This document shows, in pieces, positions 3,969-20,985 of a stretch of 29,180 nt of DNA (its first letter is position 1; each line of letters opens with the position of its first letter). The translations under genes and the position numbers were made by a program. This DNA comes from a virus. The notes beneath the pieces were generated by a model. That model was not told the origin of the DNA. It searched no databases and saw nothing but the letters and a program-made list of their open reading frames with translations. The DNA lies in the IMG/VR virus record IMGVR_UViG_3300042899_000067, positions 1 to 29,180 of that record; one strand, 5' to 3'.

Positions 3969-6020
3969 CTATATCTTTTTTAATAATTCTACTTTTGTTA
4001 ATGAATCCCCTAAAGGATTGTAACCATCTATCTTATTTAGGTAATATAAACCATTTTGAACTTTTATGGGTTTCTTAAAATCTAAGTCCATAATATCAAT
4101 CGTATTCAATAAGAAATATAAAGTAATTAGTTTAGCGTCTTTATTATCTTGCGCTTCGATAAATTCTTGATAGTATTTCACGAATAAGTTATACGCGGGA
4201 TAAAAAGCTGTTTGAAAATATATTTCTTTTGGTGCTTCAAAAGTCAAGTCGTATAATTCGCTTGTCGTGCTATCGATTAAATAATTGTAGATATGACCGA
4301 AATAAGGATATTGCACGTTGGTTGCATCAAGCAAAGTATCACCATTATAAATCTCAAAGTTTGTGCAATCTTGTAACCCTCCGTAAAATACTAGCTTAGG
4401 ATTAGTCTTTACTTTCTTGTAAGTTCCATCTGTGTTAATATCAAACATCGCAGGTAGTGCCATATCGGTATTTATAAACACATTAGGTACTAAAGAGAAT
4501 ATCAATTCAAATGCTTTGTCGTCTTTGCTAAATTCGTTTTGAGTTGTGTAAGTTTTATTACCATACGCGCTATTGTATTTATTGAAATACAACTTTGAAT
4601 AATAGTCGTTATCATTCTTGTATTTAAAGCTCAATGTTTTTGGTAAGAAATCGTTTGAAGATTTGATTGTAAACCCTTTAGATAAATCCTTCTTATTATC
4701 CCAATCGATTACGTTATCGTTATAAAAGTCTGGATAAGGTATAAACGTAAGTTTAAATTCATCGTCTTTATCTTGAATAACATACAAGTTTAAAAGATTA
4801 ATAATTGACTTTAAGAAATCAGCTTGTTTAACCGCTGTCGGCACAAATGATTTCCCTTCAAATTGCTTCCCATATATTGCGGGTACTTTTGCTGAATTAT
4901 CAAAGTTAGTAATTACTAAATTAGAAGATAATTGAATGTCTAAAATTGTTGTGCTTAATGCGCCACCTATCTTTGCTCTGAATTCATTCGCTGCACCGGG
5001 TCGTAATACAAAAGTAAACTCATAATTAAAAGAACCTATACCACCCGATATTGGATATTCCGAATAACTTTCTACGCCTGTGAATAAGTCAATCATACCA
5101 ATAGACATATTTTCGGGTGCAAAGGTATCACGCTCCCAAACTATCATACCTGTAAACTTTGCTTTTATTTCATTAGCTGAATTGTTTACTATGTAGTAAT
5201 TGCCTAAGCCATCGTCTGCAAAATTAAAATAACTAGGCACTAAACTTCCTGGGTCTAATTGCAAAGACCTATATAAATTATTGACTTCTTGAGCTTCCAA
5301 ATCCGCGCTACCTAAAGCTGAAATGTAAACTGTAAAATCTTCTTCATTATTTAATAGCGTTATCTTATCTAAGTTATTACTATCCCATAACGTAGTATTA
5401 TAAGTGTAACCAGCTTCGCTCATTATCTTGTCGAATATCTCACGACAAAACAATGTAGGTCTAAAATTAGTTACATCTAATTTGCTCGGTGTTGCATCTT
5501 TAAACTTACCATAATTCGCTAAAGCATAAATATAATCGTCACGCGACCAACTAGCTTCTATATTTGTTAAGTTATAAACTTGATTGAATTCGCTTAGGTT
5601 TAAGTCGGTCAATAGCTTGTCGCCTACGCTACTAAAGAGGTTGTTTAACGAACCGAATAAAGCGCACTCGTATATTAGCTCACCGTTCAAATACTTTATC
5701 TCTAGAAGCCTTAAAACGCCTACAAATATTTCGATATTATCAAGCGTTACTTTTGTAAAAGCTTTCTTTAAAGGATTAAAATTTACCCCGATATTTGTTT
5801 CTAAACTCGAATAAGGATTCTCGATATTGAAATCAAAGTAACTACCGAATAAAAAGTTATTGTGAGCAGTACCCGGAATGTAAATAGTCTTTGAAAATGT
5901 CGTAGTTCGTTTCTCAAAATCTTCAATATCAACTATCGAATAAGTGAAATCTATATCTACGTTTTTATCCAAGTCTAATGCAACGCCTTCGAGATATATC
6001 TGTGTCCTTTGCGTAGCCAT
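3969..6020 (-). CDS. Tail tip/hub-like structural protein
   Basis: 683 residues, aromatic and Asn-rich, with no membrane segment. Near residue 40 it has RTTTFSKTIYIPGTAHNN, a start I recognise as common to large Bacteroidota phage tail proteins that resemble baseplate hub proteins, followed by FNPLKKAFTKV and a strand-rich middle. The rest shows many short beta segments and Tyr/Phe-Asn clusters, as in distal tail or host-contact proteins. Its stop overlaps nothing and the tape measure starts at the next base; its own start overlaps the stop of the preceding gene by one base (TAATG). In this position (next to the tape measure) it probably forms the tail tip. A precise family name cannot be given. 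Confidence 0.62.
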   Translation of the reverse strand: MATQRTQIYLEGVALDLDKNVDIDFTYSIVDIEDFEKRTTTFSKTIYIPGTAHNNFLFGSYFDFNIENPYSSLETNIGVNFNPLKKAFTKVTLDNIEIFVGVLRLLEIKYLNGELIYECALFGSLNNLFSSVGDKLLTDLNLSEFNQVYNLTNIEASWSRDDYIYALANYGKFKDATPSKLDVTNFRPTLFCREIFDKIMSEAGYTYNTTLWDSNNLDKITLLNNEEDFTVYISALGSADLEAQEVNNLYRSLQLDPGSLVPSYFNFADDGLGNYYIVNNSANEIKAKFTGMIVWERDTFAPENMSIGMIDLFTGVESYSEYPISGGIGSFNYEFTFVLRPGAANEFRAKIGGALSTTILDIQLSSNLVITNFDNSAKVPAIYGKQFEGKSFVPTAVKQADFLKSIINLLNLYVIQDKDDEFKLTFIPYPDFYNDNVIDWDNKKDLSKGFTIKSSNDFLPKTLSFKYKNDNDYYSKLYFNKYNSAYGNKTYTTQNEFSKDDKAFELIFSLVPNVFINTDMALPAMFDINTDGTYKKVKTNPKLVFYGGLQDCTNFEIYNGDTLLDATNVQYPYFGHIYNYLIDSTTSELYDLTFEAPKEIYFQTAFYPAYNLFVKYYQEFIEAQDNKDAKLITLYFLLNTIDIMDLDFKKPIKVQNGLYYLNKIDGYNPLGDSLTKVELLKKI

Positions 6021-7261
6021 TATTTTGTAAGTTTAATATTATCATAAGAATATTGCAATTCTATTTGCACGTTTTGCAATCCATCCACTCGTTGTATTTT
6101 AGGCTCGTAGGTAGTCGATTTAATTGTTGCTGGTATATAATAGGTCACTCCGTTTATCTTTTCTTCTACGTAAAGAGAATGCGCTTTGATAAGCTCCCAA
6201 AACCATTCATGTTCCGCATCGTTTAGCAAATCAGAATTTAAGACTACGCCCTCTGTGTAATTAGTGAAATAGTTTTGATTCGAAAGATTAAACATGTTAT
6301 TTACATGCTGACTATACCCAGTAGGTGTAAAGTTATACGGGTAGTTCTGAATGCTCTTTCTTTCAATATCGTATCGTTTACGCTTAACCATGTTAAACGT
6401 GTAACTATCAAAACCACCAAGGCTGTTCTGCCAATACACATTTGTTTTTGCGTACTTAGAACAATAGTCATCAAAGGTAAATTTAAATGTTTCACTCACA
6501 GCGATATCGTCTTCATCTAGTAAGGTAATTTCACACGCGGTCACAAAAGGATTAATCAAATATCCCCCTATTGTTTCCCAAGTAGATTCTACTGTTTCCC
6601 ACGCTTCCGAAACATCCTCCCAATAAACAAAATCAGCTCCGAATGATTCACGACTAATCGCAATAATACCTGCTAAAGCTGAAAGGTCTGGAATATCAAA
6701 CTCATATACACCCGTTGGAATTAAAGCATTGCTTTCGTATAACTTTAAAAGTATTTTTGTAGCTGGTGAATCCCCGTCAATATAACTCAAGAAGTTTGTA
6801 CGTTCAAAGTCTGTGCTTAAAACACGTGGCGAACTTGTCAAAAACTTTGTAGTTGTGTTTGTCGTTGTGAATTGTGTTTGATTAAATTGCACAAAATCAG
6901 TGAAAGAAACTTGACCGTTAAAGGCATAGCGAACAGTATCATTATAAGACGTTCCGCCGATAGATTCCACGCATTTAATCTGATAGTTCACGTAATAACT
7001 TAAATCGTTTAAAGGCTTCCAAAATACGTCAAACTCGAAAAACATCTGGTCGTTCTTTGTAAACGATAGCAAGAATTGTTTAACATCGCAATACGCAAAG
7101 TTCCCATCATTGACAACTAATTTAACACGCCCGACTATTGTCGATTGCACCCATATCTCAAGGAATAAAAAATCTATATCGCTATTCGTTTGCACGTAAT
7201 AAATCATATCATTATTTATCGGTGTCCAAAGTTGTGGAGTTTGAATGTACGTTATTGCCAT
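6020..7261 (-). CDS. Tail structural protein, beta-rich
   Basis: 413 residues. The protein is rich in Phe, Tyr, Trp, Asn and Thr with short alternating segments, indicating an all-beta structural protein. A Trp-rich run near residues 210-228 (YWEDVSEAWETVESTWETI) and a later WQNSLGGFDSYTF are recurrent patterns in Bacteroidota phage tail proteins that precede the hub-like protein. It starts one base after the stop of the gp10-like gene and overlaps the next gene by one base, so translation is probably coupled. A distal tail or tail-tube-associated role is likely from position; the major tail tube protein has not been recognised elsewhere in the window, so this or a neighbour may fill that role. 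Confidence 0.5.
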   Translation of the reverse strand: MAITYIQTPQLWTPINNDMIYYVQTNSDIDFLFLEIWVQSTIVGRVKLVVNDGNFAYCDVKQFLLSFTKNDQMFFEFDVFWKPLNDLSYYVNYQIKCVESIGGTSYNDTVRYAFNGQVSFTDFVQFNQTQFTTTNTTTKFLTSSPRVLSTDFERTNFLSYIDGDSPATKILLKLYESNALIPTGVYEFDIPDLSALAGIIAISRESFGADFVYWEDVSEAWETVESTWETIGGYLINPFVTACEITLLDEDDIAVSETFKFTFDDYCSKYAKTNVYWQNSLGGFDSYTFNMVKRKRYDIERKSIQNYPYNFTPTGYSQHVNNMFNLSNQNYFTNYTEGVVLNSDLLNDAEHEWFWELIKAHSLYVEEKINGVTYYIPATIKSTTYEPKIQRVDGLQNVQIELQYSYDNIKLTK

Positions 7262-8730: not shown

Positions 8731-8940
8731 TTACCGTTGTGGCAAATCTTTAAAATCTTTAGGGTCGTTATCTTTTCTGAACTTTCGCCAGTCTGGTGAT
8801 ACGGTAATTAAACCACCGCTATCGATATAGTCCTTTAGGTATTGTTTAAACGCTTCTGGGTCATTCTTTGCTATTTCCTTTATAGCTATTATCTGACCGC
8901 CTTGCATTGAATCGAAAAACTCAAAAGCTTTATCTTTCAT
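8731..8940 (-). CDS. Small hypothetical protein in the tail block
   Basis: 69 residues, charged, no membrane segment. The first half is helical (IIAIKEIAKNDPEAFKQYLKDYI), the end is rich in Lys, Asp and Pro (WRKFRKDNDPKDFKDLPQR). I do not recognise the family. It starts 3 nt after the previous stop and is followed by a 34-nt gap before the tail assembly chaperone, so it belongs to the same transcript. Its position suggests a role in tail assembly, but nothing in the sequence shows it. Confidence 0.6.
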   Translation of the reverse strand: MKDKAFEFFDSMQGGQIIAIKEIAKNDPEAFKQYLKDYIDSGGLITVSPDWRKFRKDNDPKDFKDLPQR

Positions 8941-8943
8941 ATA

Positions 8944-9237
8944 TTATACCAATGACATATATGAAGTGTTTTTATACTTATTTTTTAACGCTTCTGTTTT
9001 GTAATCAGTTGCTACAACTATTGACTTATTCCAAAGACCTAATCTTTTCTTTGCATCGTCAAGATTCATCATTAAATCAGTTCTTTTAAGACCTTCGCTA
9101 ATTGTAACTTTTCTAAAATTACAAAGCAAGTCAGTCATAAATTCTTTTAATGTTACATTCCAATAAGCATTAATTGATTCGTTAAAATAAGTTATAACTT
9201 CTGTTTTGTTTTCTGTTAAAAATTCTTTATTTGTCAT
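8944..9237 (-). CDS. First gene of the structural transcript, unknown
   Basis: 97 residues, helical, slightly basic. It begins MTNKEFLTENKTEV and contains one Cys (in LLCNFRK). No recognisable motif or membrane segment. It is the first gene downstream of the promoter at 9258-9302, with a 20-nt leader between the -7 box and the ATG. As a promoter-proximal small gene it could be regulatory or a small tail protein. I do not recognise it. Confidence 0.6.
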   Translation of the reverse strand: MTNKEFLTENKTEVITYFNESINAYWNVTLKEFMTDLLCNFRKVTISEGLKRTDLMMNLDDAKKRLGLWNKSIVVATDYKTEALKNKYKNTSYMSLV

Positions 9238-9257: not shown

Positions 9258-9302
9258 CAAAGATAATGCAAAGCACCTATTCAATTGTCATAGAATTGTC
9301 AT
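9258..9302 (-). promoter_or_regulatory. Promoter with tandem 11-bp repeats (structural operon)
   Basis: On the minus strand two direct repeats, ATGACAATTCT (9302-9292) and ATGACAATTGA (9291-9281), are followed after exactly 15 nt by TATCTTTG (9265-9258), a match to the Bacteroidota -7 box TAnnTTTG. The ATG of the first structural gene is 20 nt further on. The same architecture occurs at 18459-18503. No TTTG -33 box sits at the same place in both, so the repeats probably take over that role by binding an activator, or they are an operator. The match to the -7 consensus is seen; the function is inferred. Confidence 0.7.
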
Positions 9303-12506: not shown

Positions 12507-12802
12507 ATAAATTTTTTAAATAGTATAGCCACAATACTAGCTGCGAAAGCTATCATTAAGGCTGTGATAATAATATAGTTAAAATATAAAGCTGATAGCA
12601 AAGCAACCCAGAACGATAAGCAATAACCACAATCGAAAGGTTTCAAGCGTAAAGGTGTCTTTATAAAATCGTAGCCTTTTAACTTGTTACCGATATTGAA
12701 TTCATCATATAAAAAACGTGAAAACATTTGTGGTATCATTGATATTTCGGCAAAGCTAAAGCCTAAACAAGCCGACCCGACAATAAGAAATAATTCATTC
12801 AT
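12503..12802 (-). CDS. Small membrane protein with CxxC-FW motif
   Basis: 99 residues. Hydrophobic N-terminal segment (5-22), then a polar loop, the motif PFDCGYCLSFWVAL (55-68) and a long hydrophobic C-terminal stretch (63-95) with a final basic KKF. The CxxC before a membrane helix resembles a family of small membrane proteins of Bacteroidota and their phages (DUF1360-like pattern). Location: host inner membrane. It overlaps the sigma-like gene by 8 nt. Function unknown; it lies far from the lysis cassette, so a holin role is less likely. Confidence 0.6.
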   Translation of the reverse strand: MNELFLIVGSACLGFSFAEISMIPQMFSRFLYDEFNIGNKLKGYDFIKTPLRLKPFDCGYCLSFWVALLSALYFNYIIITALMIAFAASIVAILFKKFI

Positions 12803-13346
12803 ATTCTTTAATATTTAGTTTAACATTATTTATAGCGTTCTTCACGCCGTTTGCGATTGTTCGAATAGGAATACCAGTTTTTAAACTCACATTCTTGTAA
12901 GTTCCTAATTGTAAATATAACTTTAAGACTTCACATTCAAAGAACCTTAACTCTGATATGCTCTTTTCTACCGCTTGAATCCTAGCTTCTATCTTATCAT
13001 AAGCGTTATCGTCTTGTAATTCAAACAAATGATTAGCAAATAGTATATGGTCACTGTTTTCGATTAATTCATCGTCAATTATATTGTCGCTTATCCTTTG
13101 ATTCTTGAAGTTCTGATAATAAAACTTTGAATTTTTAGAACGGAATTGGTTTAACCCTATACGAACAATAAAGAATTTTAAACATTTTCTTTCGTGCATA
13201 TCAATAATTTTTTCTTGATTGTACTCGCATATAGTTAAAAATACATCTTGTCGAAGTTCCTCCCACCATTCACCAGCGATGTTCTTAAAAAATGTTATTA
13301 TATCTTTTTGAGTATAATAATCACTTATAACCCTATTATAATTCAT
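12795..13346 (-). CDS. Sigma-70-like (ECF-type) factor
   Basis: 183 residues. Residues 27-42 (WWEELRQDVFLTICEY) match the start of a sigma region 2 (helix with QDVF), followed by a basic segment with aromatic residues (65-84). Residues 130-175 (SELRFFECEVLKLYLQLGTYKNVSLKTGIPIRTI) match sigma region 4 with its helix-turn-helix, of the kind L-E-LY-G--Y-EI----GIP--T. Such factors occur in phages of Bacteroidota and could redirect host RNA polymerase to late promoters. It lies late in the replication block, upstream of the terminase genes, a suitable place for a timer of the structural operon. Region 2 is divergent, so an autonomous HTH regulator is the alternative. Confidence 0.65.
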   Translation of the reverse strand: MNYNRVISDYYTQKDIITFFKNIAGEWWEELRQDVFLTICEYNQEKIIDMHERKCLKFFIVRIGLNQFRSKNSKFYYQNFKNQRISDNIIDDELIENSDHILFANHLFELQDDNAYDKIEARIQAVEKSISELRFFECEVLKLYLQLGTYKNVSLKTGIPIRTIANGVKNAINNVKLNIKEYE

Positions 13347-18175: not shown

Positions 18176-18436
18176 TTATTCTAAAATTGATTTATGCCAT
18201 AATCGTTTGGTTGTCCTTTCAAATATAGACTTTTCGGTGTATTCATTGTGAAATTCACAAACAACATTTGCAAAGTATAATAAAATAATAAATTTATTTT
18301 TATTAAAATCTTTGTCGCTTATTCCTAATTTTTTTGCAACCTTAATAGATTCTTCTATAAACTCCGGGTCATAGGTTAAATCAATTCTTTTTTGAGTTTC
18401 TGTTTCAATAAACAAATTTGCATTTAATTTTTTCAT
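18176..18436 (-). CDS. Ribbon-helix-helix-like small protein, candidate regulator
   Basis: 86 residues. Residues 14-52 fit a ribbon-helix-helix order: a strand QKRIDLTYD, a helix PEFIEESIKVAKKLGIS, then a second helix beginning NKNKFIILLYFANV. That is the strand-helix-turn-helix plan of Arc/MetJ/CopG DNA-binding dimers. The rest is a basic helical tail. It is the first gene after the promoter with tandem 11-bp repeats (18459-18503), the usual place for an autoregulator, and such dimers typically bind tandem repeats. The match is by pattern only and the family is short and degenerate, so an unrelated helical protein is possible. Confidence 0.55.
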   Translation of the reverse strand: MKKLNANLFIETETQKRIDLTYDPEFIEESIKVAKKLGISDKDFNKNKFIILLYFANVVCEFHNEYTEKSIFERTTKRLWHKSILE

Positions 18437-18458: not shown

Positions 18459-18503
18459 CAAATATAAGGTCATTGCACAAAAGAATTGTCATAGAAATGT
18501 CAT
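18459..18503 (-). promoter_or_regulatory. Promoter with tandem 11-bp repeats (replication operon)
   Basis: On the minus strand ATGACATTTCT (18503-18493) and ATGACAATTCT (18492-18482) are followed after exactly 15 nt by TATATTTG (18466-18459), a match to the Bacteroidota -7 box. The next ATG is 22 nt downstream. The same layout and spacing occur at 9258-9302. The repeat block directly abuts the lysis-operon terminator, so this is a compact operon boundary. Confidence 0.72.
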
Positions 18504-18538
18504 AAATAAAAAAAGGCAGTCAAATTAATGACCGCCTT
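18504..18538 (-). terminator. Rho-independent terminator after the lysis cassette
   Basis: On the minus strand a 10-bp stem AAGGCGGTCA / TGACTGCCTT (18538-18529 and 18522-18513) with one G-U pair and a 6-nt loop is followed by seven T (18514-18508). It lies 24 nt after the spanin stop. In the plus orientation the G-U pair would become an A-C mismatch, which supports action on the minus strand. Confidence 0.9.
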
Positions 18539-18561
18539 CTAAACAAACAACAATGAAAAAC

Positions 18562-20977: not shown

Positions 20978-20985
20978 CAAAGATA
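20978..20985 (-). promoter_or_regulatory. Promoter-like -7 box for the metallophosphoesterase operon
   Basis: TATCTTTG on the minus strand fits the Bacteroidota -7 box TAnnTTTG, 17 nt before the ATG at 20960. The surroundings (CATTATCTTTG then TTTAA) resemble the two repeat-type promoters at 9258 and 18459, but no tandem ATGACA repeats and no clear TTTG -33 box are present. A different class of promoter is therefore likely. Confidence 0.45.

Follow-up and report, generated by a model that had tools for sequence, protein, structure and literature searches.

The analyzed window is a virus record of 29,180 bases, in which nearly all long open reading frames (ORFs) lie on the minus strand. A pattern search revealed two perfect copies of ATGACA-N5-ATGACA-N20-TAnnTTTG on this strand, at 9302..9258 (P1) and 18503..18459 (P2). 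At P1, the tandem 11-bp repeats (9281..9302) consist of ATGACAATTCT (9302-9292) and ATGACAATTGA (9291-9281) and are followed by 15 nt, the -7 box TATCTTTG (9265-9258), a 20-nt leader and the ATG at 9237. P2 shows the same order, with the repeats ATGACATTTCT (18503-18493) and ATGACAATTCT (18492-18482) at 18482..18503, again 15 nt, the -7 box TATATTTG (18466-18459), a 22-nt leader and the ATG at 18436. Even with up to three mismatches allowed, P1 and P2 were the sole matches to the full pattern in the window, while dinucleotide shuffles of the window gave a mean of 0.01 matches. This confirms the two matching promoters with tandem 11-bp repeats described in the initial annotation. The -7 box by itself is uninformative, as TAnnTTTG occurs at background level (56 in the window versus 47 expected).

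Here, the hemA-type promoter element is defined as a TGACA-N6-TGACA direct repeat with an 11-bp period, the second repeat being separated by 19-21 nt, usually 20, from the TA of the -7/-10 box. Both P1 and P2 carry the repeat with this period at a spacing of 20, and at both the TAnnTTTG box is located ~15-25 nt ahead of the start codon, as in Bacteroidota sigma-A promoters. In F. psychrophilum, the -7 box was mapped at -12..-5 (PMC9723704); placed accordingly, the ATGACA half-sites fall at about -49..-44 and -38..-33. The absence of a fixed -33 TTTG, which had been pointed out before, holds insofar as none is present at normal spacing in P1 and P2, but the -33 position is covered by the downstream ATGACA. 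A strong intrinsic terminator (hairpin and U-run, 18511..18540, minus strand; fold -17.6 kcal/mol, z -5.9) stops 7 nt short of the P2 repeats and closes the block upstream. P1 is situated in an AT-rich intergenic stretch after the terminase gene, where hairpin folding showed no clear terminator. A third box on the minus strand (20978..20985) is free of repeats and conserved in this form in the relatives, and can therefore be regarded as the contrast class that it had been proposed to be.

P1 is followed by a variable first ORF of 97 aa (8944..9237) and a second ORF of 69 aa (8731..8940, cluster c5), and P2 by a variable first ORF of 86 aa (18176..18436) to which family searches assigned no family, all on the minus strand. 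Comparison with relatives showed that most of them encode another small protein in the first ORF behind P1 and P2, with the second and later genes unchanged. ORF kinds also swap position. For example, a related pair is found behind P1 in L018 and L075 and behind P2 in L060 and L082, and the 69-aa protein, second behind P1 in the window, has a homologue in first place behind P2 in L021 and L087. L072 (terminase 98% identical) has neither repeats nor variable ORF at P1; its 69-aa gene comes first there, behind an ordinary TATATTTG box. Repeats are likewise missing at P1 in L083 and L084, where the 69-aa gene comes directly, and in L080, where another small ORF comes first; thus, they appear to be dispensable for the tail block. 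At P2, L085 has an ordinary box instead of the repeat promoter. By position, P1 starts the tail block and P2 the replication block, as originally annotated, but the first gene behind each is an exchangeable small ORF and L072 does without the repeats at P1. With variable first ORFs and repeat-free relatives, the repeat promoters look like a module tied to exchangeable accessory genes. The hypervariable slots behind P1 and P2 (8944-9237 and 18176-18436 in the window; first ORFs in L007, L008, L016, L018, L036, L044, L058 and L060) hold candidates for anti-defence or host-takeover genes. Elsewhere in the window, 19695-20084 matches the Pfam family PF18909 (dATP/dGTP diphosphohydrolase N-terminal family). 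Genes of this type can go along with modified-base phage genomes.

Most close relatives (terminase 89-99%) carry the elements at the same two positions with 0 mismatches. In addition, a third copy (P3) is located on the opposite strand, inside ~1.6 kb missing from the window contig. The contig L030 (99.3% identical; L030:1-1640) bridges the window ends 1 and 29180 via these ~1.6 kb, which contain P3 and four small ORFs, so that the record probably represents a genome, circular or circularly permuted, from which a piece is missing. A scan of IMG/VR, in which the spacing was left free at 18-21, yielded 68 stretches corresponding to 56 unique sites, and in 50/56 of these the spacing was exactly 20. 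The sites are spread over several unrelated phage groups with unrelated downstream genes. For the phage-site consensus, in which close relatives weigh most, we left out L003 as well as L019, L023, L027, L028, L055, L061, L062 and L067; the latter eight (T4-like or coding) look like chance matches within genes. The initial annotation had taken the repeats and their spacing as the conserved part and P1 and P2 as one class, and had named conservation in relatives as a check; this check was run and passed, with relatives keeping both. One phage group (L006, L013, L020, L037, L040 and L066) shows the element followed by a conserved ~105-nt leader before the first ORF, which may represent a small RNA or a structured leader. 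A terminase search among annotated phages found neither a close isolate nor a host; the promoter type points to a host within the Bacteroidota.

The same element was found in bacterial genomes. A scan for the full element across 84,980 bacterial and archaeal genomes gave only 53 places, and those with a spacing of 20 were concentrated in Bacteroidota, many of them ahead of hemA (glutamyl-tRNA reductase). With at most two mismatches tolerated, the rows listed for 199 Flavobacteriales genomes comprised 101 matches, compared to 10 for the pattern read backwards. There is usually one match per host genome, most often at hemA: this gene stands behind 52 of the 81 Flavobacteriales elements fetched, the box being mostly 11-27 nt away from the start codon, as in the phage. 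Other host genes carrying the element in this sample, recognized by eye from N-terminal sequences, were hemB, TonB-dependent receptors and a bacilliredoxin-like gene. For an unbiased sample, hemA genes were drawn from 30 Flavobacteriales genomes irrespective of the element; 20 hemA genes were compared, and 18 of them are preceded by it.

In Sphingobacteriales, all 30 hemA genes (30/30) carry TTGACA-N5-TTGACA or ATTACA-N5-ATGACA variants, at 20 or 21 nt from TTACTTTTG-like boxes. Within the order of a Saprospiraceae genome, a convincing form was present at 5/8 better-matching hemA genes, including one whose -7 box is weak and another whose distance from the start is unusual. Bdellovibrionales showed the exact TGACA-N6-TGACA at 6/7 hemA genes, 20 nt ahead of a TA-rich, sigma-70-like -10 box (shuffles ≤0.0004 each); for the upstream regions of Flavobacteriales, Sphingobacteriales and Bdellovibrionales alike, mononucleotide shuffles served as controls. 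In the sampled hemA upstream regions of these three orders (L312-L331, L339-L376 and L383-L389), TGACA-N6-TGACA-N20-(TAnnTTTG or TAnnnT) is nearly universal. Copies in the Pedobacter sp. Leaf170 genome (L197, L212), whose hemA carries a variant element (L349), and in a Pedobacter MAG (L194) precede small genes of prophage- or mobile-element-like appearance, and mobile elements beyond this phage group seem to use the element, too. The literature searched on a hemA motif in Bacteroidetes and on flavophage promoter classes contained no description of the element.

Altogether, we consider it likely that P1 and P2 are promoters of the host's main sigma factor, in which the -33 region is replaced by a predicted host-activator site identical to the hemA element. 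On the sequence level, this is supported by the identity of the element, its fixed spacing, its near-fixed place at hemA and its conservation in phages; from these features we infer protein binding to the element, activation and the supply of the protein by the host. The main sigma factor would read the TAnnTTTG -7 box, while the pair of ATGACA half-sites, offset by one helical turn, would serve as an activator site in place of the -33 element, where the bound activator would substitute for the -33 contact with the polymerase. That a protein is bound and touches the polymerase is suggested by the equal spacing ahead of two kinds of -10 box and across phyla. Supply by the host appears most likely because the sites occur in several bacterial orders and in unrelated phages; among the relatives compared, no fixed phage-encoded partner gene adjoins the phage sites. 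In this way, the phage probably relies on a host regulator to express some of its own genes. It and its relatives would hold two or three copies of the host regulator site, which would head exchangeable small accessory ORFs: P1 at the start of the tail block, P2 at that of the replication block and P3 in a cassette on the opposite strand. The relatives without repeats at P1 (L072, L080, L083 and L084) and at P2 (L085) were counted against a host activator.

As an alternative explanation, both blocks could be coordinated by a phage-encoded regulator that binds to the repeats, comparable to phage middle-promoter systems; examples would be the sigma-like product of 12795-13346 and the 86-aa protein encoded at 18176-18436. 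The presence of two copies in one genome, ahead of two blocks, would fit such a regulator, and the 183-aa protein at 12795-13346 weakly matches the phage sigma-factor family PHROG 1740 (E=4e-4). However, the sites are not confined to activator-carrying phages but are found at hemA in several bacterial orders and in unrelated phages, and in most relatives keeping the promoters other ORFs take the place of the 18176-18436 gene, which makes a phage regulator quite improbable. Of the initial proposal that one regulator controls both promoters, the common control is favoured by the conserved element class shared by P1 and P2, but the two phage-encoded candidates named for it are not. The product of 12795-13346 is possibly a phage transcription factor for another promoter class. 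It is similarly doubtful that the repeats form an extended -33 or upstream element read by RNA polymerase alone, giving a strong constitutive promoter that needs no regulator: TGACA does resemble a -35 hexamer, the downstream repeat lies at the -33 position and Sphingobacteriales hemA genes have TTGACA twice, but host genomes contain the element rarely, and mostly at hemA rather than scattered over strong promoters, both copies are retained one turn apart, and the spacing is identical ahead of TAnnTTTG and TAnnnT boxes.

The bound host protein could also act as a repressor, e.g. one that senses heme, and would then keep the phage genes silent or tuned down until the state of the host changes. 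At the -33 position overlapped by the downstream repeat, a bound protein could indeed block the polymerase. Activation, however, fits better with the lack of an own -33 TTTG at normal spacing in P1 and P2, and the repeats maintain an exact distance from the -7 box across phyla; we therefore regard repression as rather unlikely. That AT-rich promoters share short repeats merely by chance or common ancestry might be suspected in an AT-rich genome in which TAnnTTTG is common, but is refuted by the counts given above (0.01 matches in window shuffles, spacing 20 in 50/56, 101 versus 10 matches, and 18/20 and 6/7 hemA genes) and can practically be dismissed.

As to the identity of the predicted host activator, the OmpR/PhoB family typically recognizes direct TGTCA repeats that recur every 11 bp. 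A response regulator of this family, bound as a head-to-tail dimer to the 11-bp TGTCA repeats, is our guess, which we rate as nearly as likely to be right as wrong. PhoB acting on its usual genes was not supported: the Pho-box geometry fits, but no pst/pho gene was recognized by eye behind the 81 host elements (52 of which belong to hemA). The same applies to RprY, as nqrA, its proven target in P. gingivalis, lacks the element in three Bacteroidota upstream regions. The rprY gene is present in 40/40 genomes tested and lies near hemA in 2/40, these two being 99% alike there. None of the hemA loci inspected gave evidence of a regulator gene regularly beside hemA, and a divergent AraC or other regulator was discarded, with no AraC or response-regulator signature at these loci except L332 (G064). 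L332 (G064:C5) carries an RprX/RprY-like kinase-regulator pair at 5042-7179, ~3-5 kb from hemA, in a single pair of Flavobacteriales genomes (G064 and G096). In an OmpR-family profile, one paralogue was present in 11/13 element-carrying genomes and in 0/10 genomes without detected hemA, the latter being drafts in which absence may reflect incompleteness. A wider set showed a PhoB-like protein in 50/51 genomes, among them genomes without detected hemA, and many hemA-bearing genomes have only one; the profile was therefore dropped as proof. Among solved structures, the PhoB-like regulator of the wider set is closest by sequence to MtrA and RegX3.

In these bacteria, hemA encodes the first step of the heme pathway. 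It is conceivable, though we advance it tentatively, that a single undescribed activator governs this entry step in Bacteroidota and Bdellovibrionota via TGACA-N6-TGACA located 20 nt upstream of the -7/-10 box, and that its site has been copied by several Bacteroidota phage groups and other mobile elements, so that replication, tail and accessory genes track the heme/redox state of the host. If true, phage gene expression would be linked to host heme or redox state, and a knockout of the host protein would be predicted to alter both hemA expression and phage infection. Little is known so far about the transcription of Bacteroidota phages and about hemA regulation in this phylum, and a short, exact cis-element common to phages and to the hemA genes of two phyla provides a handle on both. 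Phage promoters using host regulator sites are a known kind of arrangement; what is probably new here is the source of the site, a very widely conserved hemA promoter element of which the literature searched gave no description.

Among known systems, P1 and P2 share the -7 box at -12..-5 and the short leader with Bacteroidota sigma-A promoters, as represented by the F. psychrophilum motifs SM1-3 (PMC9723704). While SM1-3 are described by their -7 box, ATGACA repeats at a fixed distance fill the -33 region in P1 and P2, and hemA-type sites are rare and hemA-associated. RprY and HaeR of Porphyromonas gingivalis are OmpR-family Bacteroidota regulators linked to stress or hemin, for which no binding motif is given in the respective studies (PMC3646045, PMC3764172). 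The three nqrA promoters compared are without the hemA-type element. The Pho box of E. coli PhoB (consensus CTGTCATAAAACTGTCAT) likewise consists of 11-bp direct repeats of TGTCAT with the downstream half-site over the -35 region, and P1 and P2 read TGTCAT-N5-TGTCAT on the plus strand. However, Pho box repeats have the same orientation as the gene and lie ~10 bp upstream of the -10 box, whereas the phage repeats are reversed and 20 nt away from the box, and the host gene with the phage-type element is hemA rather than pst/pho. Marine cyanophages reportedly have phage genes under host Pho boxes, and the predicted use of a host regulator's binding sites at P1 and P2 would resemble this case. Here, the phylum is a different one, the pathway is that of heme rather than phosphate, and the sites are located ahead of replication, tail and accessory blocks.
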